Shown here: in pieces, positions 1,973 through 16,227 of the stretch | Layout: the number at the start of each line of letters is the position of its first letter | Numbering within the stretch: position 1 is the first letter of the stretch | NCBI GenBank assembly: GCA_003165335.1 | Contig: PLTD01000048.1 | Span: forward strand, 1-32,218 | Length of the DNA stretch: 32,218 bases | Source of the DNA: Rhodospirillales bacterium | GTDB taxonomy: Bacteria > Pseudomonadota > Alphaproteobacteria > BOG-932 > Roseiterribacteraceae | Direction of reading: 5' to 3' | Notes under the pieces: generated by a model | What the model saw: only the letters and a program-made list of their open reading frames with translations | Told to the model about the DNA's origin: nothing | The model's database searches: none | Program-made: the position numbers and the translations under genes

Positions 1973-4354
1973 ATGAAATTCACGCTCAATTGGCTGAAAG
2001 ATCACCTGGACACGGCCGCGTCGCTGGATGAGATCGCTTTAACGCTGACCCGGATCGGGCTCGAGGTCGAAGGAATCGAGAACCCCGCGGAGGCGCTTTC
2101 CCCCTTCGTCGTCGGTGAGATTCTGTCCGCTGCGAAGCATCCGAACGCCGACAAGCTGCAGGTTTGCCAGGTCGATGTCGGCAAGGGCCAGCCAGTTGAG
2201 GTCGTTTGCGGTGCGCCCAATGCCCGCGCAGGGCTGAAGACAGCTTTCGCCGCACCGGGCAGCGTCATTCCAGCCACCGGGGACGTGCTGAAGGTCGGCG
2301 CGATCCGCGGCGTCACCTCGAACGGCATGCTGTGCTCGACCCGCGAGTTGAAGCTGGGCGAGGATCATGACGGCATCATGGAACTGCCGGCCGATGCCGT
2401 GCCGGGTGCGCCGATCGGCCCCCTGCTGGGGCTTAACGATCCGGTGATCGAGATCAATCTGACCCCCAACCGCGCCGACTGCGCTGGGGTGCGCGGCGTC
2501 GCCCGCGACCTGGCCGCAGCGGGGCTGGGTGAGCTGAGGCCGTTGGGCATCGATCCGGTGGCCGGCGCCTTCCCGAGCCCGATAACCGTCAATATCGAAA
2601 ATACCGACGCCTGCCCGCTGTTCCTGTCGCGCGTCATCTACGGCGTGAAGAACGGGCCCAGCCCGAAATGGCTGCAGGACCGGCTGACCGCGATCGGTCT
2701 TCGCCCGATATCGGCGCTGGTCGATGTGACGAATTATTTCACCTTCGACCGCTGCCGCCCGCTGCATGTGTTCGACATCGCAAAAATTCATGGGAACACA
2801 CTGACCGCCCGCTCAGCCCGCGCGGGCGAGACGATGGCCGCGCTGAACGGCAAGGACTATGCGCTGAGCCCCGGCATGACGGTGATCGCGGATGCCGAGG
2901 GCATCGAGAGCCTGGGCGGCATCATCGGCGGAGCGGCTAGCGGCTGTTCGCCCGAGACCGGCGGCATCGTCATCGAATGCGCCCTATTCGATCCCAAGCG
3001 CACCGCCGAGACGGGACGTACACTGCAGGTCAACTCCGATGCCCGCTATCGCTTCGAACGCGGGCTCGACCCCGCTGCGGTCCTTGAGGGAATCGAAGCG
3101 GCAACGCAGATGATTCTCGAGCTTTGCGGCGGCGAGGCCAGCGAGATCACCGTCGCAGGCGCCGTGCCGGACTGGCGGCGCACCATAGTTTTCCGTCCGA
3201 CGCGAGTTGCGTCGCTGGGCGGCGTCGGCGTGCCGCCGGAGCGTCAGGAAGCGATATTGTCGGCAATCGGCTGCATGATCGCCGTCGACGGTCCGGCGCT
3301 CTCGGTTACGCCGCCGTCCTGGCGGGCGGATATCGAGGGCGAGGCCGATCTGGTCGAGGAGGTTCTGCGGATCGAGGGATACGACCGCATCCCCGAAACG
3401 CCCCTGCCCCGCCTGCATGCCGTCACCCGTCCTGCCGTGGACGCAGCCCAACGGCGCGTGTTCTGGGCCAAGCGCCTGCTGGCCGCACGGGGCCTGGAAG
3501 AGGCGGTTACCTGGTCCTTCATGGACGGCAAACTGGCCAAGCTGTTCGGCGTCGCCGACAATTTGGTGCTGCTGAACCCGATCAGCGCCGATCTGTCGAC
3601 CATGCGCCCTTCGATTCTGCCTAACCTGATTCAGGCGGCCGCGCGCAATGCCGCACGCGGCCTCAACGACGCAGCCCTATTCGAAGTCGGTCCGGTATTC
3701 TTCGCCGACGGGCAATCGACGATTGCCACCGGCATCCGCACCGGCCTTGCTCAGGGTCGGCATTGGTCCGGCAAGCCCAAGGCGGTCGATCTGTTCGACG
3801 TTAAGGCCGATGCACTGGCGCTGCTGACTTCGCTGGGCGTCGACGCCGGCAAGCTGACGGTCGATGCCAGCGCGCCCGGGTGGTTCCATCCGGGCCGGTC
3901 GGGCCTATTGAAGCTGGGCCCCACAGTGCTGGGTACTTTCGGCACGATCCACCCCGACATTTTGGACGCCGCAGGCTTTGAAGGCGCCTGCGTCGGCTTT
4001 ACTGTAGATCTGGCCGCCGTGCCGCTGCCGCGCCGTAAGGGCACGGAGCGGCCGCAGCTGGTGCTGTCGGCCTTCCAGCCGGTACGGCGCGACTTCGCCT
4101 TTATCGTCAGTGAGGACGTGGCGGCGGAAAAACTCATTCGCGCGGTGCGGGGCGCTGACCGTGCATTGATCGTCGACGCGCGATTGTTCGACGTCTATAC
4201 CGGACCGGGGGTCGAAGCCGGCAAGAAATCGCTGGCAATCGAGGTGACGCTGCAGCCGGCGGAACGTACGTTGACCGATGCCGATATCGAGGCTGTGGCG
4301 GCTCGCATCATCGCCGCCGCAGCCAAGGACGCAGGCGCGGCCCTGCGCGGATAA
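1973..4354 (+). CDS. pheT: Phenylalanine--tRNA ligase beta subunit
   Basis: This is the 793-residue beta subunit of PheRS, which forms the heterotetramer with PheS and carries editing and tRNA-binding modules. Domains by position: N-terminal OB-fold tRNA-binding domain (about 40-150), B3/B4 editing domain (about 200-380), B5 domain (about 400-475), a catalytic-like core, and a C-terminal ferredoxin-fold anticodon-binding domain (about 700-793, beginning near the FQPVRRDFAFIV segment). The length is typical for proteobacteria and no frame disruption is seen. It starts 6 nt after the pheS stop, so the two are translated together. Confidence 0.98.
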   Translation: MKFTLNWLKDHLDTAASLDEIALTLTRIGLEVEGIENPAEALSPFVVGEILSAAKHPNADKLQVCQVDVGKGQPVEVVCGAPNARAGLKTAFAAPGSVIPATGDVLKVGAIRGVTSNGMLCSTRELKLGEDHDGIMELPADAVPGAPIGPLLGLNDPVIEINLTPNRADCAGVRGVARDLAAAGLGELRPLGIDPVAGAFPSPITVNIENTDACPLFLSRVIYGVKNGPSPKWLQDRLTAIGLRPISALVDVTNYFTFDRCRPLHVFDIAKIHGNTLTARSARAGETMAALNGKDYALSPGMTVIADAEGIESLGGIIGGAASGCSPETGGIVIECALFDPKRTAETGRTLQVNSDARYRFERGLDPAAVLEGIEAATQMILELCGGEASEITVAGAVPDWRRTIVFRPTRVASLGGVGVPPERQEAILSAIGCMIAVDGPALSVTPPSWRADIEGEADLVEEVLRIEGYDRIPETPLPRLHAVTRPAVDAAQRRVFWAKRLLAARGLEEAVTWSFMDGKLAKLFGVADNLVLLNPISADLSTMRPSILPNLIQAAARNAARGLNDAALFEVGPVFFADGQSTIATGIRTGLAQGRHWSGKPKAVDLFDVKADALALLTSLGVDAGKLTVDASAPGWFHPGRSGLLKLGPTVLGTFGTIHPDILDAAGFEGACVGFTVDLAAVPLPRRKGTERPQLVLSAFQPVRRDFAFIVSEDVAAEKLIRAVRGADRALIVDARLFDVYTGPGVEAGKKSLAIEVTLQPAERTLTDADIEAVAARIIAAAAKDAGAALRG

Positions 4355-4660: not shown

Positions 4661-5494
4661 ATGGAACTGGGCCTTTCAGGCAAGACCGTCATCGTGACCG
4701 GGGGCAGCGGCGGCATAGGCCGCGGGCTGTTGCTGGAATTCGCGCGCGAGGGCTGTAATGTCATCAACGCCTCGCGCGATATGGATATCGGGCACGCCAT
4801 CGAGCGCGATGCCAAATCGCAGGGCTTGAAAGGCACAATCCTGTCGGTGAAGACGGATGTCACCGACCGCGCCAGCGTCGATGCCATGGTGAAGGTCGCC
4901 AACGAGCGCTTCGGCCCGGTCGATGTGCTGGTCAATAATGCCGGCGGCGTTGCCCATCAGTCGCCTTTCGAGGAACTGTCGAGCGACACGCGGTCATGGG
5001 AATTGGCGCTCAACGCCGACGGGGTGATCAACTGCAGCCAAGCGGTCGCCCACGACATGCTGTCGCGCAAGCATGGCAGCATCATCAATATTTCCTCCAA
5101 TTCCGGCCTGCTGGGCGAGGCGGCGCAGCAGGTGGTGCATTACGGGGCGACCAAGGGGTTTGTGAACAGCCTGAGCAAGGGGCTGGCCTATGAATGGGGA
5201 CCGAAGGGCGTGCGGGTGAACAACATCGCCCCCGGATGGATCGTCCCTTACAAGAACGACGATGTCGGACCCGGCAGCTTCTGGAACCGCCTGGTCGTGG
5301 ATAACCGCGGCAAGCCCGAGCAGATGCAGGAGGCCCTGGAAGCCGGCCAATTGCAAAATATGGCCAACCTGCCGATCCGGCGCCTGGGGCGTCCGGAGGA
5401 CATCGCCTATCTGGCGCTGTTCCTGGCCTCTGACGTTTCCAGCTATATCACCGGCCAGCTGATCAGCGTGTCCGGCGGTGTCTATATGCCTTAA
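4661..5494 (+). CDS. SDR family NAD(P)-dependent oxidoreductase
   Basis: This is a classical short-chain dehydrogenase/reductase of 277 residues. The Rossmann dinucleotide motif TGGSGGIG is at residues 13-20, NNAG at 92-95, and the catalytic triad is S148-Y161-K165 (YGATK). After strand beta-2 the chain reads NASRD with no acidic residue at the usual NAD-selecting position, which favours NADP(H) (inference). An insertion near residues 205-235, between the PGW motif and the LGRPED motif, probably shapes the substrate pocket. The substrate is unknown. GGGGAAG lies a few bases before the ATG. Confidence 0.92.
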   Translation: MELGLSGKTVIVTGGSGGIGRGLLLEFAREGCNVINASRDMDIGHAIERDAKSQGLKGTILSVKTDVTDRASVDAMVKVANERFGPVDVLVNNAGGVAHQSPFEELSSDTRSWELALNADGVINCSQAVAHDMLSRKHGSIINISSNSGLLGEAAQQVVHYGATKGFVNSLSKGLAYEWGPKGVRVNNIAPGWIVPYKNDDVGPGSFWNRLVVDNRGKPEQMQEALEAGQLQNMANLPIRRLGRPEDIAYLALFLASDVSSYITGQLISVSGGVYMP

Positions 5495-5573
5495 GGGCAA
5501 TCGAGGGCGAAGACATCTTTTACCGCGGGGGCGATGGCTCTATAGTCTGAAGTGTCCATCTAAGAGCGGGTTG

Positions 5574-6719
5574 ATGAGCGATTGCGTCGAGCAACAGGCT
5601 GCCCCTCCGATCGGCGCAAATATTCCGCCGGGGAGGACTCGCGATTGTCTCGACCCCTGGAACTATCTTGAAATCTCGGCGCGCGGCGACATCCGCCCCT
5701 GCTGCAATTTCCACCCCTTGGCAGAACTCCTCGATAGTGAAGCAAGTATAGGCGCGGTCCGGGACAATGCCGGGTTTCGGGCTTTGCGCAAATCGTTGCT
5801 GAGCGGTGAGCTGCAGGGACCTTGCGAGAAATGCCATATTCGCAAGATGACCCCCGTCGGTGTGCTGGAGCGGCGCCTATCGAGCGCGAAACATCGGCGC
5901 TCCCAGCCCGATATCCTGGCGCCATTGCCTGTCGTCGAGTTGCGTATCGACATCAATGAAAAATGCAATCTGCGATGCGACTATTGTGCCGTTTCGTCCC
6001 CCGAGTATCGCGGAGTTGAGATGAACGGTGAGCTTTTCGAGAAAGTCGAAAAGCTCGTCGGGGAAGTCAGCCCGCATGCTGCTGTGCATGTAAACGGACA
6101 TGGCGAGACGACCTATCATCCGAAATGGATGACGATGTGCGGGTCAATTATCGAGGTCGGTTATCGTCCACATATCATCACCAACCTCGCCAAAAACTAC
6201 AGCGAAGAAGAAATCGACATGCTGGCCAAGTTTTCCAGCATTCAGGTCAGTCTCGACAGCGACGACGACGCACTGATGCGCAGTATCCGCAAATCGGTAC
6301 GTACGGCTCATGTATTCGAAACGATAGAGCGCATTCTCAACGCCGCTGGGCGCCTGGGAATCTCCCCCGCGCCTCGCGTGTCGTTCAGCGTCGGGGTCTA
6401 CGACCCGTCGATCTGGACTCTGGAAAGATTTGTCGAACGGATCGTCGCGTTCGGCGTTCGCAACATAACATTCTGGAACCTGGTTGAGATGGATCACCAG
6501 AGGCTGGTCGAACCATTGCGCAACTTGCCCGCTTCGGACCAAAATCGCGCACGCGCCATCTTGGCGGCAGTACGCAGAACGCTCGAAAAAGCGGACGTCA
6601 ATTACATCTTTGCCGGCGATTTCGACTCAATGGTTCCCCAGCTGACCGGAGCCTCCCGTCTGCGCTCGATATTGCGACGGGCCCGCCGCGCCGCTTGGCG
6701 CCGCGTATTTTCGGCATAG
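5574..6719 (+). CDS. Radical SAM protein with N-terminal SPASM-like cysteines
   Basis: This 381-residue protein has the radical SAM cluster motif CNLRCDYC (C131, C135, C138) followed by NGHGE, the GGE-like SAM-binding motif. These predict a [4Fe-4S] cluster that cleaves S-adenosylmethionine. Ahead of the core is a cysteine-rich module: C25, then RPCCNFHP (C43, C44), then GPCEKC (C84, C87). This resembles half of a SPASM auxiliary-cluster domain, normally found after the core. The C-terminus is basic and arginine-rich. The ATG at 5574 was chosen because the upstream in-frame start at 5478 overlaps the SDR gene and adds a non-conserved basic extension. The substrate is unknown and no obvious peptide precursor lies adjacent. 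Confidence 0.87.
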   Translation: MSDCVEQQAAPPIGANIPPGRTRDCLDPWNYLEISARGDIRPCCNFHPLAELLDSEASIGAVRDNAGFRALRKSLLSGELQGPCEKCHIRKMTPVGVLERRLSSAKHRRSQPDILAPLPVVELRIDINEKCNLRCDYCAVSSPEYRGVEMNGELFEKVEKLVGEVSPHAAVHVNGHGETTYHPKWMTMCGSIIEVGYRPHIITNLAKNYSEEEIDMLAKFSSIQVSLDSDDDALMRSIRKSVRTAHVFETIERILNAAGRLGISPAPRVSFSVGVYDPSIWTLERFVERIVAFGVRNITFWNLVEMDHQRLVEPLRNLPASDQNRARAILAAVRRTLEKADVNYIFAGDFDSMVPQLTGASRLRSILRRARRAAWRRVFSA

Positions 6720-6778
6720 CGGGCGCCAATTCCCTTACCTGAATGAGCGAGTCGGCAGGCTGCTTAAAAAGCGGTCAT

Positions 6779-6806
6779 TGATATGCAACCATATGGTTGC
6801 ATATCA
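6779..6806. promoter_or_regulatory. 28-bp perfect palindrome, probable ArsR operator
   Basis: The two 14-base halves are exact reverse complements, centred on CCATATGG between 6792 and 6793, with GCAACC/GGTTGC as the GC-rich core. It lies directly before and across the start region of the ArsR gene, where an autoregulatory ArsR dimer would bind. The perfect symmetry and position make an operator the most likely reading. Which regulator binds is inference. Confidence 0.82.
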
Positions 6807-7107
6807 GGTCATGGATGACGTGTTCAAGGCCTTGGCGGATCCCCGCCGTCGGGCATTGCTGGATCGGCTTCAAGCCGAGCCCGGACAAACCCTGGGCGAG
6901 CTTTGCCAGGGGGTGGAAATGAGCCGACAGGCGGTTTCCAGGCATCTGGCGATCCTGGAAGAGGCAAAGCTGGTGGCGACCATCAGACGCCGACGGGAAA
7001 AGCTGCATTACCTGAACCCAGTTCCCATCCATGAGATCGCCGATCGTTGGATCTGCAAATATCAGCGCGCCGCTCGATGCGTTGGCCGCACTGCAGTTGC
7101 AACTTGA
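6793..7107 (+). CDS. ArsR-type winged-helix regulator, C-terminus frameshifted
   Basis: This is a small HTH regulator of the type usually paired with SRPBCC/AHSA1 genes. It shows the N-terminal VFKALADPRRRALLDRL block, the recognition region MSRQAVSRHLAILEEAKLV, and the wing ending in REKLHYLNPVPI. The last residues depart from the family. Reading one base out of frame from about 7066-7070 restores PLDALAALQLQLEEEK and a stop at 7130-7132, overlapping the next start as expected, so one extra base has probably entered the GCGCGC run. The start is uncertain: ATG 6793 falls inside the palindrome, ATG 6811 just after it, and TTG 6778 is unlikely. The DNA-binding domain is intact, so it may still function. 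Confidence 0.8.
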   Translation: MVAYQVMDDVFKALADPRRRALLDRLQAEPGQTLGELCQGVEMSRQAVSRHLAILEEAKLVATIRRRREKLHYLNPVPIHEIADRWICKYQRAARCVGRTAVAT

Positions 7108-7118
7108 GGAGGAAAAGG

Positions 7119-7409
7119 ATGAGCAGCGATAAGCCGAGTTTCGTTGATGTCACCTATATCAAATCGACGCGCGAGCACGTGTTCGAGGCGCTGACCGATG
7201 GCGCGATCACGTCCAAATATTGGTTCGGCCATCGCATCGAAGGCGAGTGGCGGGTGGGCGGGCCGCTCAAATTCGATCATGAGGACAAGCTGGTCCATGA
7301 TGACAAGGTCCTGGCTTACGACCCGCCCAACCTCCTTTCGTATAGCTGGCCCCCCTGCCAAAGGCTTTGAGAACGAGGCCGTATCGCGCGTGACGTTCAC
7401 GCTGGAGCA
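7119..7409 (+). pseudogene. SRPBCC/AHSA1-domain gene, frameshifted and 3'-truncated
   Basis: The ATG at 7119 follows a strong GAGGAGG site and reads MSSDKPSFVDVTYIKSTREHVFEALTDG, the start of an SRPBCC (START-like, AHSA1) protein of the kind encoded beside ArsR regulators. The frame stops at 7370 after a run of six C (7350-7355). Removing one C restores WPPAKGFENEAVSRVTFTLEQ, the expected continuation. Family identity then ends near 7410, about two thirds through the domain, where the sequence becomes a receiver-domain fragment in another frame. The gene is therefore broken twice and very probably non-functional. Confidence 0.8.
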
Positions 7410-7589
7410 AGTCGGGTCGCAGATGCCGCAAGAGAAACCCGACCCGGCCTGAAAGTGCTGTTCGTAACCGGCTATGCAGAGAATGCCGCCGTCGGCAAAA
7501 GTCTGCTCGATCCGGGGATGCAGTTGATCACCAAACCGTTCGCGATCAGGGCCCTGGGCAATAAGATGCGCGAAATGATCGAAGGCTGA
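7410..7589 (+). pseudogene. 3' remnant of a response-regulator receiver domain
   Basis: Reading from 7410, the frame gives SRVADAARETRPGLKVLFVT, then GYAENAAV, DPGMQLITKPFA and a stop at 7587-7589. This is the end of a CheY-like receiver domain, as found at the C-terminus of alphaproteobacterial hybrid histidine kinases, with the beta-4 VLFVTGY strand and the conserved KPF lysine. There is no start codon, no phospho-acceptor Asp and no kinase upstream. It is the tail of a gene whose body has been deleted, joined to the SRPBCC fragment. Confidence 0.78.
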
Positions 7590-7631
7590 GGCGGATTGTC
7601 GATCGGCCCCAGCCTCCGAAATATTAAGCGC

Positions 7632-9842
7632 TCAATGCGCCAGCGGATTGGGGCGCATCTGGAAATTGGCGATGTGGCCGTAGGCGCCGTTTTCCTGGTG
7701 GGCCATCGCGGCGGTGGTATAGGGCGCCCACAGGCCCCGTCCCTTCCAGCCGGCCTTGGCGTCGTCGATGCGACCGTCCACGTCCCGGGCGTAAAAGCCC
7801 ATCGGATAGGGCACGCGTAGCGTCACCCATTTTTCGGTCTTGGGCAGGAAGGCCAGCACAGAATCGGAGTTGTCGCCGGGGAAGAAGGGCACGTCCTTGC
7901 CCAGCCCGAACACGTTTTCGTAATCGATCCAGGTCGCATAGATGTGATCCGAACCGACATCCGTGCCTGCAACCAAAGGTCCGGGCGGGTTGAATATCTT
8001 CCAGCCCTTTGCGCAATGCTGGCCGGTCGCGGTCGGGCCGTTCAGCACGTCGCACTGCCGCCGGTCGAAGCGGCCGATCTGGCCAGAGGCGAAGGCCACC
8101 CAGGCGACGCCATCTGAATCGATATCAACCCCGCGCGGATTAAATGCCAAATAGCGGCCGTTCACCAAAGGCGGCTCATAATATTCGACCTTGCAGGTTT
8201 CCGGCGGGTGGCTGCCGCGGTCCATGCGGATGATGCCGCCCGGCACGTAGGGCAGATAATCCGCGCCCCAGACGCTGTGGTCCTTCGGGCTGACGCCGAT
8301 GCCGTAAATAAAGCCGCGCACCAGCGTGTCATGGGTCGGGTCGGCCACCTTTGGCGAGCCTTCCTCCATATTGATTTTGGCCTTGTCGGCGATGTTGTTC
8401 CAGCGTGACGAATCCTGATCCATCTTGCCGTCGCCGCTGGTGTCGATCACCAGCGGGCACCAGCCCTCGGCCTTTTCGGCATTGTGGGTTTCATCCCAGA
8501 CGCGGGTGTCGAACCAGCCCATCGCCGAGAACTCGCCGCTGAAATAAACGGTATTGTCCTTGTCGCGGTCGAAGTTCAGATGGTCGCTTTCGGCGCATTC
8601 GGGGATGACCGTCACTTTCTTGGTCGCCGGATCGTAGATATCGATGATCCGCGCCTGGGGATTGTCCATCGGATAGAGCTTGGCGAAGGCGTTCTTGGGG
8701 TCGGTGCAATAGGACGGGTTCGGCCCCTCGCGATAGTTCGCCGCCACCCAGACGCGGCCCTTCTGGTCCAGCGTCACGGCATGGGGCACGGCTTTGTCGT
8801 TATGGTCCGACGCCGGACTGATGCCGGGGATCGGCACCGACCAGGTTTTGTCGGTGACCGGATCGATATTTTCGAACGTGCCATCGTGAACGCCTAGCCC
8901 ATAGATCGTGCCGTAGCCGTTGATCCACGGGTTGCGGTGATCAGTGCTGGCCTGGTCGTGAATCTGGCGGCCGTCGGCCCAATCGCGCACGGTGACGACC
9001 AAGTTGCGCTCCACGCCCTCGGGCCGCGCCGGGGGAACCGGCGGCACCTCGCCATCGGCGATGCGTTTTGTCCAATCGGCGAAGACCTTGACCGCGGCGT
9101 CATGGCCGAAGCGGGCGAAGTTGTTGTTCATGCCGGCATTGAGCTTGACCCGCGCGGTCCAGCCGTCGGGTGAATTATCGGCCGCCTCACGCGTCGCCTG
9201 GTCGCCCAGCTGATGACAGAATTCGCAATTTTCCTTCATGTTGCCGAACCAGCTTTGCTGAGTCTTCAGCTGCGGATTGATGCCGTTGCCCTGTGGGCCG
9301 GTGCCGGGGAATTGATCCTCCTTCGGCGGGTGCAACAGGGCGTACCAGTAATTCGCCGGATAGATCTGGGCGGCGGCGCGGGCATCGGGCGCACCCGTCA
9401 CGGTCAGATTGACCGCCATGCCGGGCGTTGCGACCACAGGCTTTGAGTCGGTCAGGCCATAGCCGCGAACCCAGACTTTGTAGTTCACCTTTTGTAGTTC
9501 GGGGATGACATATCGGCCGGCATCGTCCGTGACGACCACCTTTGCCAGAACCGTCGGCAGATCGCTGGTCTCGGCAATAACCCAGACCCCGGCTTCCGGA
9601 CCCTTCGGACCCATCACCCGGCCGCCGATATCGTCAGCGGTGATCTCGACGCCATCGGGTGCTTTCTGACCGGCGGGGGCGCGCTCTGACTTATCGGTCA
9701 AGGTCGGAGCGGCGGCATGCTTGACCGGCGCCTTCTGCGCCGAGCCGCCGAGCGTCTGGGTTACCTCCTGCGCCATCGCGGGCAGACCCGCCAACAGGAG
9801 ACAGGCCGACGCAACCAGGCACAACCGCCGATAACTTCCCAT
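7632..9842 (-). CDS. Secreted protein with carboxypeptidase-regulatory-like domain, CxxCH heme site and beta-propeller
   Basis: This is a 736-residue exported protein. The signal peptide (residues 1 to about 24) has a basic start, a leucine-rich core and a predicted cleavage after AMA. A carboxypeptidase-regulatory-like beta-sandwich spans about 70-150. CEFCH at 206-210 is a single c-type heme motif. From about 290 to 720 the repeated tryptophan and glycine-rich strands suggest a Vgb/SMP-30-like propeller, with DTSGDGKMD and DIDSDGVAW loops that could bind calcium. The ATG at 9842 was chosen because the longer frame (to 9941) adds 33 residues ahead of an excellent signal peptide. Substrate and electron partner are unknown; periplasmic location is inferred. 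Confidence 0.85.
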   Translation of the reverse strand: MGSYRRLCLVASACLLLAGLPAMAQEVTQTLGGSAQKAPVKHAAAPTLTDKSERAPAGQKAPDGVEITADDIGGRVMGPKGPEAGVWVIAETSDLPTVLAKVVVTDDAGRYVIPELQKVNYKVWVRGYGLTDSKPVVATPGMAVNLTVTGAPDARAAAQIYPANYWYALLHPPKEDQFPGTGPQGNGINPQLKTQQSWFGNMKENCEFCHQLGDQATREAADNSPDGWTARVKLNAGMNNNFARFGHDAAVKVFADWTKRIADGEVPPVPPARPEGVERNLVVTVRDWADGRQIHDQASTDHRNPWINGYGTIYGLGVHDGTFENIDPVTDKTWSVPIPGISPASDHNDKAVPHAVTLDQKGRVWVAANYREGPNPSYCTDPKNAFAKLYPMDNPQARIIDIYDPATKKVTVIPECAESDHLNFDRDKDNTVYFSGEFSAMGWFDTRVWDETHNAEKAEGWCPLVIDTSGDGKMDQDSSRWNNIADKAKINMEEGSPKVADPTHDTLVRGFIYGIGVSPKDHSVWGADYLPYVPGGIIRMDRGSHPPETCKVEYYEPPLVNGRYLAFNPRGVDIDSDGVAWVAFASGQIGRFDRRQCDVLNGPTATGQHCAKGWKIFNPPGPLVAGTDVGSDHIYATWIDYENVFGLGKDVPFFPGDNSDSVLAFLPKTEKWVTLRVPYPMGFYARDVDGRIDDAKAGWKGRGLWAPYTTAAMAHQENGAYGHIANFQMRPNPLAH

Positions 9843-10309
9843 TTTCCCGACTTTCTTATTTAGAACACGCTTCAAAAACGCAGCACACTGCCCGGCAGAA
9901 CCTAACCCTTGTCGCATAAAGATGCTGTCGTCAGGCCACAAGGCTTTTGGCAGGACTATTTATTCATTTCGTGAAATGCCCGCGCAATTCGCTGCGGCGC
10001 CAAGCGGGCAGTCGGGAGTTGGACCTGTGGCTTCAGCGCGCGACAATCGAGATCGGACAGACATCAAGCCCTGGCCTAGCCCGCATTTCTAACACTGCCG
10101 CTCCCAGGGCACTTGGCGCCCCTATTTGCGTAACGCAATTAGCGACGTCTAGCGTCGCGGCGGGGGAGGCAGTCGCACAGCCGTCCATTGCGGAATCAAT
10201 TTTCGCGCGGCGACACTACCCCCACCCGGCGCTGAGCGCCGACCTCCCACTCAAGGGAGGCGTTTATAAAGCAGGAGAGGGTATGAGTGAGGCGCCGATC
10301 TCCCTCATT
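9843..10309. other. 467-base intergenic region, no credible gene
   Basis: The gap lies between the start of the propeller gene and the end of the DUF2076 gene, both on the minus strand. It contains short symmetric elements: CATTTC-GT-GAAATG at 9965-9978 and TTGCGT-A-ACGCAA at 10126-10138. A REP-like double hairpin is near its right end. The promoter of the propeller gene should lie here, but I see no clear -35/-10 pair. A long plus-strand frame crossing it runs antisense through DUF2076 and is not credible. Confidence 0.5.
10221..10262. repeat. REP-like intergenic double hairpin
   Basis: Two hairpins are adjacent: GGCGC-TGA-GCGCC (10228-10240) and CCTCCC-ACTCAA-GGGAGG (10243-10260), preceded by CCCCCACCC. 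The layout resembles dispersed extragenic palindromes that recur between alphaproteobacterial genes. It sits just after the DUF2076 stop (10310, minus strand), where such elements can stabilise or end transcripts. Only one copy is visible in the window, so the repeat status is from recognition of the type, not from counting. Confidence 0.5.
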
Positions 10310-11239: not shown

Positions 11240-13066
<1,827 letters not shown>

Positions 13067-13067
<1 letters not shown>

Positions 13068-13384
13068 TGAAACTGCTGGTAACCGACCTCGAAGGAGTGG
13101 AACATTCGATCGAGGCAATGGCGAACTGGACCGTGATGGAAATCATCCGGGATGGAGACCTGCCTATGCGGGCGGAATGCGGCGGCTCCTGCGCCTGCGC
13201 GACCTGCCATGTCTATATCGCCCAGGAATGGGTGAACCGCCTGCCGTCGATGGAAGAAGAAGAGCGTGGAACGCTGGACGGCGGGTTCGAGATCGAGCCC
13301 AACTCCCGCCTGTCATGCCAATTGATCATGACGCCGGACTTGGACGGGCTGAAGGTTACGCTGACCAACGACAGCAGCAACTGA
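13067..13384 (+). CDS. 2Fe-2S ferredoxin, adrenodoxin type
   Basis: This is a 105-residue electron carrier. Cluster ligands are read as C38, C44, C47 (in CGGSCACATC) and C84 (RLSCQL), the adrenodoxin/ISC pattern C-x5-C-x2-C-xn-C, with an extra C42 inside the loop. The acidic stretch EEEERGTLDG matches the partner-docking helix of such ferredoxins. It overlaps the FNR stop by one base, which implies coupled expression. The physiological acceptor is unknown; cytochrome P450s, Rieske oxygenases and Fe-S assembly are common for the family, and none of these is in the window. Confidence 0.95.
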
Positions 13385-13397
13385 CCCAAGGCCGGCA

Positions 13398-14282
13398 ATG
13401 AGCGGATCAGGCGATCGTCACAGCCCGGCCCCCGCGGTGCTGAACGACGCCTCAAAGCGGGCGGGTTTTTTCCTGAAGCCGGTCCCCTTATCGGAGTTCA
13501 CCTTTTATCTGGTCGGGCTTTTGTTCGTCCAATATTGGGCCGGTTTTGCGGCGATGCTGCTCAGCCATCTGAGCGCCGAAACCCTTGCCAATGAATTTGC
13601 CCAGGTCAGCGTATTGCCCGTCATCGAATGGTATATGCTGTTCGGGTTCATTCGCCGGGTGGGCAACCGGCCTATTTCGCCCGCACTGGCCTATGGCTCT
13701 CTGGCGCTGATCGTCGCCGCTTCGGTGGGGGTCCATCACCAGCGCATCGCCTTTCTGGTTGAGACTTTGGCATTGCTCGCCGCTTGGATCGCGGTGCCGG
13801 GATTGAGACGCGTCGGGGCGATCCTGTTGATGATCGCGCTTCAGCATCCGCAATGGCTGACTCCGCTGCACGGGCTGATCAGCGGGTTCGATGCTCAAAC
13901 GGTCAGTGGCGTTATGAGCCTGATCGGCCATCCTGTGACACGCACCGGGAACATGATCATTTCGGCAGGAATGCCCGACGGCATGATCGTTCTTGCAGGG
14001 TGCGCCAGCAGCAATCTGATGGTGCCGATGGGATTGGGGCTCGCGGTTCTGCTTGTTGCGAGCCGGGACAGATTGACTGGAGCCGACTTTGGCTGGATCG
14101 GCATCACGCTGGCGATCGCCTTCGCAATCAATATCGTGCGGCTGTGCCTGATGCTTCAGAGCCACGCGGCCTATCTGTCGTGGCATATCGGGACCGGCGC
14201 ATCCTACGTCAGCGTCGGAGGGTTGATCGTTACCCTGGCAGCCTGGTTCGCCGCGACCGGCCGTGACGAGGCCCGAGCATGA
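13398..14282 (+). CDS. Exosortase/archaeosortase-family transpeptidase-like membrane protein
   Basis: This is a 294-residue polytopic membrane protein, with about seven or eight hydrophobic segments between residues 33 and 285. It carries the exosortase catalytic pattern: C202 in GCASSNL, N245-xx-R248 in NIVRLC, and H263 in WHIGTG. The order and spacing match the Cys-Arg-His triad of enzymes that cleave PEP-CTERM-type sorting signals in the inner membrane. CASSNL differs from the common CSG form. It starts 13 nt after the ferredoxin and overlaps the next gene by 4 nt (ATGA). No protein with a PEP-CTERM-like tail is encoded nearby, so the substrate is unknown. Confidence 0.78.
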   Translation: MSGSGDRHSPAPAVLNDASKRAGFFLKPVPLSEFTFYLVGLLFVQYWAGFAAMLLSHLSAETLANEFAQVSVLPVIEWYMLFGFIRRVGNRPISPALAYGSLALIVAASVGVHHQRIAFLVETLALLAAWIAVPGLRRVGAILLMIALQHPQWLTPLHGLISGFDAQTVSGVMSLIGHPVTRTGNMIISAGMPDGMIVLAGCASSNLMVPMGLGLAVLLVASRDRLTGADFGWIGITLAIAFAINIVRLCLMLQSHAAYLSWHIGTGASYVSVGGLIVTLAAWFAATGRDEARA

Positions 14283-14743
14283 TCTCGGCATTCCGCCTGA
14301 GCTGTGCCGCGGCGCTCACCGGGTTCATCGCGCTCGGCGCCGTGAGGCGGCACGGCGACGGCCCCTTGGCTGACCCGGCCACTGCGCTGGTCGATCATAT
14401 CCGCGCGCGCGGATATGATGTCTCTGCGCCTCAGAAGGTTCTATGGGGCGTGCCGGGTATCGCAATTTCGGTTGCCGCCTGTCCACAGCCGATCGACGCC
14501 CTGGTATTCGAATTCGATGAAATCATGAGCCCGGGCATTTTGGCGGGCGTGCGCGCAGCCGATCCGGGTATTTTGCAGGTGAGCTATGAAGGAGAGACGT
14601 TCTCGACATTCGACCGCGCTGCGCTGTATCGGCTTCGGCTGACAAACGGCCTGGCCGAATTTGTTCGTACGGGACAATGGGTCGATCCGCCGGTTATTCT
14701 CCTGTTCTGGCCCGCGGGCTGCGCCCAAACGTCGATTCTATAA
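14279..14743 (+). CDS. Hypothetical protein, exosortase-linked, N-terminal membrane segment
   Basis: This is a 154-residue protein I do not recognise by family. Residues about 5-21 form one hydrophobic segment (a signal anchor or uncleaved signal), and the rest looks globular with mixed alpha/beta content and two scattered cysteines near C68 and C149. The gene overlaps the exosortase by 4 nt, so the two are translationally coupled. This layout is similar to exosortases accompanied by a small membrane-anchored accessory protein. It could be a periplasm-facing partner of the exosortase (inference). There is no C-terminal PEP-CTERM motif, so it is unlikely to be the sorted substrate. Confidence 0.75.
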   Translation: MISAFRLSCAAALTGFIALGAVRRHGDGPLADPATALVDHIRARGYDVSAPQKVLWGVPGIAISVAACPQPIDALVFEFDEIMSPGILAGVRAADPGILQVSYEGETFSTFDRAALYRLRLTNGLAEFVRTGQWVDPPVILLFWPAGCAQTSIL

Positions 14744-15546: not shown

Positions 15547-16227
15547 TCATCGGTTGGCCCGCAGGAAGGCCTGCATATAGAAGCCGGCCTGATGGTTGCC
15601 ATAGCGATGGATCCCACCGACTGGGCAGGCGCGCCGAGCCATACAACCGGATGTCATGCAATCGGCGCCGTGATGCCCAGAGATATGGCCTATACAAGCC
15701 GGAACGTCATAGCCCGCAGATCCAAAAGCACCGACTGGGCACGCGGCCAGGCAAGGCTTGCCGCTGCATGTGTCGCATGGGCTGGGATGAGGATCCTTTT
15801 GCGGGATCGTCAACCTTTCACGAAATGCCAGCGCGCCGCGATAGGAATGCCATAGCCCCCAATCGGGATGAATCAATATACCAAGCGGAGACGGGTGGAC
15901 CGGTTCGGCCTTTAGCGCCCAGAGCTGAAAAGGCAGAAATGGAGGTCCGCAGAACGGGAATAGGGGCGTCGCACAGACCCTCCTTGCAAGGTCGCTTACG
16001 GTTCGCCGCGACCAGCGGTCGAGCGGATCGGGCCGGCCATCGGAAGCCTCGGGCGAAGCAGCGAAAGCAGACCATTGCCCATTTCCCGTAAAGCCCACCA
16101 GTACGAGCGTTCCGGGCGACACGCCGTTGGGCAGGATCGGTGGCGCATCCTCCAAGTCGGGATGGAAAGCGCCGCGAAACGCTAGTCCGGCCGCAGCGAT
16201 GAAGCTTCGAATGGAGTCGAGTTCCAT
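15547..16227 (-). CDS. 4Fe-4S protein related to QueG/corrinoid reductases
   Basis: This 226-residue protein has a C-terminal iron-sulfur region: CDTCSGKPCLAACP (C-x2-C-x4-C-x3-CP) at about 150-163, then a second set in DCMTSGCMARRACP. These would hold two [4Fe-4S] clusters. The N-terminal part, with DPLDRWSRR, PLFPFCGPPFLPFQLWA and SPLGILIHPDWGLW, resembles the cobalamin-binding half of QueG-like enzymes, although full QueG is longer and has C-terminal repeats. The gene starts 21 nt after the icmF stop on the same strand, so it is probably the last gene of the ACAD-icmF operon. A role in reducing or handling cobalamin for IcmF is inference. Confidence 0.8.
   Translation of the reverse strand: MELDSIRSFIAAAGLAFRGAFHPDLEDAPPILPNGVSPGTLVLVGFTGNGQWSAFAASPEASDGRPDPLDRWSRRTVSDLARRVCATPLFPFCGPPFLPFQLWALKAEPVHPSPLGILIHPDWGLWHSYRGALAFRERLTIPQKDPHPSPCDTCSGKPCLAACPVGAFGSAGYDVPACIGHISGHHGADCMTSGCMARRACPVGGIHRYGNHQAGFYMQAFLRANR

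Follow-up and report, generated by a model that had tools for sequence, protein, structure and literature searches.

The window, the whole 32,218-nt stretch of a Rhodospirillales genome analysed here, carries two overlapping ORFs on its forward strand. The first (13398..14282, +) encodes a 294-aa protein predicted to belong to the exosortase superfamily by a profile-profile match to the XrtA core; the second (14279..14743, +) encodes a 154-aa protein with an N-terminal signal or anchor, a predicted extracytoplasmic alpha/beta domain and two conserved cysteines. The two genes overlap by 4 nt at the stop and start codons (14279..14282, +), with the ATG of the small gene at 14279-14281 and the TGA of the enzyme gene at 14280-14282, the arrangement given in an earlier sequence-only reading of this DNA. 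That reading had described the neighbours as redox and B12 genes, and indeed genes for a short-chain dehydrogenase, a reductase and a 2Fe-2S ferredoxin lie upstream of the pair and a gene for a cobalamin-type binding protein lies downstream. It had also noted the lack of PEP-CTERM substrates and exopolysaccharide genes in the window; in agreement, a C-terminal-tail scan of the window gave no candidate with both tail and motif, and no polysaccharide gene was seen among the window proteins scanned.

Three further genes in the window were observed in passing: one for a large 769-aa exported protein (7632-9941, −) with a weak carboxypeptidase-regulatory-like match at the N terminus and otherwise unmatched in Pfam and NCBIfam, one for a 226-aa Cys-rich protein (15547-16227, −) with only a sub-threshold QueG/ferredoxin match, and one for a radical SAM protein (5478-6719, +) with a SPASM match before the radical SAM domain, scoring below all equivalog cut-offs.

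The 294-aa enzyme is hydrophobic, and its hydropathy profile suggests ∼8 to 10 membrane segments, some of them overlapping, where about eight transmembrane helices are usual for the superfamily. EpsH is described by Haft et al. 2006 (PMC1569441) as having three motifs, Cys-x-Gly, Asn-x-x-Arg and His-x-x-x-Gly, placed where successive membrane helices end. The window enzyme keeps the second motif (N245-I-V-R248; codons at 14130..14141, +) and the third (H263-I-G-T-G267; 14184..14198, +), while the first is replaced by Cys-x-Ser in GCASSN, where C202 (14001..14003, +) is the predicted nucleophile. In a 13-row family alignment with pairwise identity of 15-33%, residues N185, C202, N245, R248 and H263 are invariant and the HxxxG motif is exact in 12 of the 13 rows; Cys-x-Ser occurs in most family members, with Cys-x-Gly retained in just one of the 13 (genome G038). 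The Cys-Arg-His pattern and its positions (202, 248 and 263), as well as the departure of the cysteine motif from the common form, had been read correctly from the single sequence.

At E ≤ 1, neither the enzyme nor its small partner had a match among the Pfam and NCBIfam models, those of EpsH-type exosortases (PF09721 and TIGR02602) included. A PF09721 search of the enzyme's own genome returned XrtA and one weak frame of 12.2 bits, the window enzyme being absent from the matches. For that enzyme a single family model left any trace: TIGR04178, for the exosortase/archaeosortase signature, aligns to residues 197-283 with E 7.9. The AlphaFold model of the enzyme is poor (pLDDT 40.7). Compared by hhalign with 13 alphaproteobacterial XrtA cores, a profile of 14 family members gave a probability of 95% (E 3.8e-8, 240 columns); the Cys positions coincide, as do the NxxR positions, and the reversed control gave a probability of 0.38%. 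In addition, two relatives pass the TIGR04178 cut-off of 23 bits, those of Rhizobium gallicum (30.8 bits) and Rhizobium sp. WL3 (23.6 bits). HMM classification, proposed earlier as a check in which scores under the threshold would count against the idea, has a divided outcome: scores of the window enzyme are below every family threshold, yet the profile-profile match and the two relatives still place it in the superfamily. By these comparisons the enzyme is a divergent member of the exosortase superfamily, and the earlier suggestion of a distinct subfamily gains support.

The single window sequence led to three true remote relatives among 385 genomes of the class; a match in locus L005 (E 9e-4) was rejected as an aminotransferase. 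A four-member profile found the family in 10 of the 385 genomes at 11 loci (G356 has two), with matches in G260 and G337 (E 3e-4 and 1e-3) discarded as partial matches inside 516-aa frames. In a draw from the phylum, 5 of 398 genomes carried the family, all of the same class (Alphaproteobacteria). Among genomes of 84,980 species no close relative of the window enzyme was found, and a three-relative profile yielded three loci. The named relatives, Caulobacterales and Rhodospirillales MAGs, Microvirga ossetica, R. gallicum and Rhizobium sp. WL3, are all Alphaproteobacteria. Altogether 17 enzymes were examined (the identity range given above covers the first 13); the enzyme at locus L084 is 82% identical to one of the two in G356 and hence not independent. 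The family is thus, judged on sequence, a sparse and very divergent alphaproteobacterial exosortase subfamily. The one annotated relative is that of Rhizobium sp. WL3, where enzyme and partner are both labelled hypothetical; we found no paper naming the enzyme family or the tail described below, a search result that does not establish absence from print. Many family loci contain glycosyltransferase, export or chain-length genes. The enzyme of Rhizobium sp. WL3 lies in an annotated polysaccharide locus and that of R. gallicum in an apparent one, identified from reading frames only.

The sequence-only reading had proposed that the small gene encodes a coupled partner and had asked whether the 154-aa family always accompanies the enzyme. 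A partner gene is found directly downstream of the enzyme gene, or fused to it, in 16 of the 17 members, and all 16 partners have two cysteines (aligned or read); in the 17th (G038) a frame occupies the partner position and was left out of the partner alignment. Enzyme and partner genes overlap by 2 to 98 nt at 13 of 13 loci measured, and the two cysteines, C68 (14480..14482, +) and C148 in PAGC (14720..14722, +) in the window protein, stand at equivalent places in all 13 partners aligned. A forecast written beforehand for three plasmid loci was correct for the two-Cys partner in 3/3 cases and for tail proteins within a few kb in 1/3 (M. ossetica); its third item, polysaccharide genes, was borne out by the annotated locus of Rhizobium sp. 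WL3 and the apparent one of R. gallicum. M. ossetica encodes enzyme and partner as an in-frame fusion, a single 479-aa frame (L108:7803-9242, +; plasmid NZ_CP016617.1); its halves match the enzyme and partner of G098 with E-values of 2e-67 and 8e-17, respectively. Because the two proteins are fused in this species, enzyme and partner are likely to cooperate physically. PLSDB lists no gene at the fusion frame. The description of the 154-residue protein as membrane-anchored and unrecognised agrees with its N-terminal signal or anchor and with the model searches above. Its predicted structure (pLDDT 65.5, pTM 0.56) had no Foldseek match in the PDB at E ≤ 0.001, and the best VIA match (2joi, Z 5.1) is below the level called meaningful by the tool. 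We conclude that the small gene was rightly taken for a true, if predicted, partner of the enzyme.

Candidate targets were detected next to the relatives. These are secreted proteins with a C-terminal tail made of an (A/V)P(A/G/S)PxxGxG motif, a hydrophobic helix and an Arg-rich end; they are tiny, about 56 to 140 aa. At 8 of 14 loci tail proteins are encoded no more than 2 kb from the enzyme, namely in G207, G356 (both enzymes, three proteins), G110, G098, G038, G603 and L084; six of the loci were identified by rule, G110 and G603 by reading only. A further tail protein is situated ∼8 kb from the enzyme in G213, and M. ossetica has two directly upstream of the fused enzyme. The tail rule was drawn up after tails had been seen; its first, strict version gave four matches near enzymes and one in the control, and the version loosened to admit a longer basic end (which G110 and G603 fail) found seven frames in 64.7 kb near enzymes versus one in 256 kb of control sequence, in which L083 duplicates part of L035. 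The sole control frame is the G213 protein. Comparison of L084 with G356 shows that both flanking targets have kept the proline motif and the first part of the helix almost intact (VPGPLEGVGLPF; VPGPLEG to VPGPVEG), whereas the protein bodies have diverged in parts. When an M. ossetica tail was compared with 72,556 plasmid records, it matched the record of the fused enzyme at four places and otherwise gave just two matches, with E-values of 5 and 9. Searches of the whole genomes of G099, G199 and G623, each of which has the enzyme, detected no tail protein, nor was there one within 8 kb of the enzyme on the two Rhizobium plasmids. In G278, a 65-aa protein (L059:1417-1614, +) is barely more than a signal peptide and a tail (SPAPAPVAGASLLGLG...RRRNRDK).

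The earlier reading had called the enzyme an orphan with an unknown target. This part did not hold, given the polysaccharide loci of relatives and the proteins encoded elsewhere in the window genome. A tail model (A3) built from tails of five relatives, none from the window genome, matched that genome with E-values of 7.9e-5 and 1.9e-4, and the proposed genome-wide search for short C-terminal sorting tails did find a matching set: at least eight APxP tail proteins, with contig C56 carrying a row of five, C117 two and C42 one. All eight start with a hydrophobic, signal-like N terminus; one ends in EPAPAPVAGAGIASFGAAFAALAAFRIRRRQ and the others alike. The enzyme gene itself adjoins neither a target gene nor a polysaccharide gene in this genome. 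A classical PEP-CTERM set together with an exopolysaccharide locus served by this enzyme had been named as a finding that would speak against the idea. Both exist in the genome, with 11 PEP-CTERM sites (PF07589) and, by reading, an apparent exopolysaccharide locus, yet they accompany a separate, true XrtA (280 bits against a cut-off of 208). Those APxP tail proteins that were scanned against the PEP-CTERM models (PF07589/TIGR02595) all stayed below the cut-off. The five APAP-tail genes arrayed on C56 (8333-12973, within L086:8333-13835) are accompanied by a recombinase-like gene upstream (6496-8082) and two genes for similar 270-aa membrane proteins of unassigned kind (11249-12061 and, just past the array, 13023-13835).

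A model of 12 tails matched 11 of the 385 class genomes at E ≤ 1e-3. By reading, seven of these have genuine tails, and 7/7 have the new enzyme; the other matches were rejected as an acyl-CoA dehydrogenase (G125), a transporter (G351) and PEP-CTERM-like sequences (VPEPASVLLFG in G314 and VPELGTALVFG in G301). An eighth tail genome among the enzyme carriers is G098, whose tail protein (E 0.0145) adjoins the enzyme. Tails are thus present in 8 of 10 genomes with the enzyme versus 0 of 375 others (matches read), a contrast that is partly circular since much of the model was trained on tails seen either beside the enzyme or in the window genome (five relatives and that genome supplied the training tails), and since the class search scored no more than 20 first-look candidates from any one genome. 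When each genome was left out of training in turn, recovery was good for G278 (7.3e-7, an unlinked target), for G098 (1.6e-6) and, with a best value of 4.5e-5, for the window genome; it was weak for G213, G207 and G356 (0.003-0.005), G110 and G603 came back only at 0.16-0.17, and recovery failed for G038 and L084; the background column of this test contained shortened copies of the tails themselves and was not used. PF09721 is found in 52 of the 385 genomes, and only G000 and G213 carry both PF09721 and the new enzyme. Genuine tails occur in none of the 50 PF09721 genomes lacking the new enzyme, while in six tail-bearing genomes the new enzyme is present and PF09721 finds no match. Within the window's order, the four other genomes all contain PF09721 and lack both the new enzyme and the tails.

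The reading we favour, with a probability of roughly 0.8, is that the window pair makes up a separate exosortase system, one enzyme plus its dedicated accessory subunit, with APxP tails of its own. Target proteins would be exported by Sec, with the tail retaining them in the inner membrane, and the proline motif would be recognised at the periplasmic face. C202, together with R248 and H263, would then cleave the target through a thioester, after which the target may be handed to a lipid or polysaccharide acceptor or released. The partner domain would reside on the same side of the membrane, probably disulfide-linked, and may aid recognition or transfer from a position like that of EpsI in XrtA-EpsI proteins. 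In the window genome the pair would run beside XrtA and its PEP-CTERM proteins. Counting against this reading are the three whole genomes with the enzyme and no detected tail protein, the two Rhizobium plasmids with none within 8 kb, the partial circularity of the tail contrast, and the position of the window enzyme away from any target or polysaccharide gene. We infer cleavage, acceptor and role of the cysteines by analogy with EpsH and archaeosortase as presented in PMC1569441 and PMC7157517; the former leaves the acceptor open. A stronger version, which we put forward only tentatively, has two independent sorting lines in one cell with different destinations, XrtA serving PEP-CTERM and the new enzyme with its two-Cys subunit serving APxP; here the partner's Cys pair would be a working part, perhaps as a redox switch or as a second acyl carrier passing the cleaved protein to a different acceptor.

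The APxP tails could instead be PEP-CTERM variants handled by XrtA, with the window pair doing something else or decaying. The two kinds of tail do have a common three-part layout, the window genome encodes XrtA, and contig C42 has one gene of each sorting class, PEP-CTERM and APAP-tail, placed end to end in convergent orientation (L088:10469-11867). This explanation is nonetheless improbable: it is at odds with the tail genomes that lack a PF09721 exosortase and with the PF09721-only genomes that lack tails, none of the 11 PF07589 sites in the window genome is an APAP gene, and catalytic residues are intact across the enzyme family. Even less credit is due to the idea that the enzyme is an exosortase-like protein of polysaccharide assembly or transport without a protein target, the nearby tail proteins being coincidental. 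The polysaccharide-related genes at many family loci and the three family genomes with no detected tail protein would fit it; conservation of the triad in 13/13 aligned enzymes and of the strict HxxxG in 12/13 argues against it, as does the concentration of tail proteins beside the enzyme, with unlinked ones in the same genomes.

More weight, if still on the unlikely side, goes to a doubt about the small protein, which might be the target itself or a highly divergent EpsI rather than a member of a new accessory family. EpsI occupies the same place in XrtA systems, downstream or fused (PMC1569441), and XrtA proteins of the class often bear an EpsI domain in the equivalent position. Against the first version, the aligned partners have no C-terminal sorting tail, and in M. 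ossetica the partner is part of the enzyme polypeptide. Against the second, the partner has no Pfam or NCBIfam match to EpsI (TIGR02914/DUF3485) and hhalign with 13 EpsI domains gave a probability of 0.5%, a value that leaves room for common ancestry beyond detection.

The proposed system of enzyme, accessory subunit and APxP tail resembles XrtA/EpsH with PEP-CTERM and EpsI in the homologous core with NxxR and HxxxG, the accessory extracytoplasmic domain encoded downstream or fused, the tripartite tails and the polysaccharide-locus setting of relatives. It differs in having CxS rather than CxG, no PF09721/TIGR02602 match, a partner not detectably EpsI, an APxPxxGxG tail in place of PEP, and in coexisting with XrtA in the window genome. 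Exosortase D with VPLPA-CTERM is an alphaproteobacterial system. It, too, pairs a proline-rich tail with a dedicated enzyme; its models TIGR04152 and TIGR03370 are, however, absent from all family enzymes and tail proteins scanned. Relatives of the window enzyme match cyanoexosortase C (NF033464), archaeosortases E (TIGR04124) and D (TIGR04175) and XrtX (NF046081) weakly in the C-terminal half (E 2e-7 to 4e-3), all far under curated cut-offs; the window enzyme matches none of them. In Flavobacterium johnsoniae, deletion of either XrtF or the adjacent system-associated protein causes the same biofilm loss (PMC10936215). The likeness is one of arrangement, an exosortase with an adjacent dedicated partner; XrtF targets are given as unknown in that paper, whereas the new enzyme has candidate tail proteins.

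What is new here, on the evidence of sequence comparison, is a subfamily of exosortases that has a sorting tail and an accessory family of its own, all below the specific family models tried. Exosortases would thereby gain a subfamily missed by the specific Pfam and NCBIfam models tried, along with a sorting signal and an accessory family. The presence of two tails and two enzymes in one cell would allow a direct test of exosortase specificity; the tiny targets and the fused enzyme/partner likewise make specificity testable, and targets of this size are suited to mass spectrometry of new C-termini.

Two family loci deserve mention for their composition. At L003, one family enzyme is flanked by a 4′-phosphopantetheinyl transferase-like gene (166-879) and an Acetyltransf_6 FemAB-like gene (2814-3566). 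In G356, two copies of the system are situated on different contigs (L031 and L035), and the tail proteins of each copy are worded differently.
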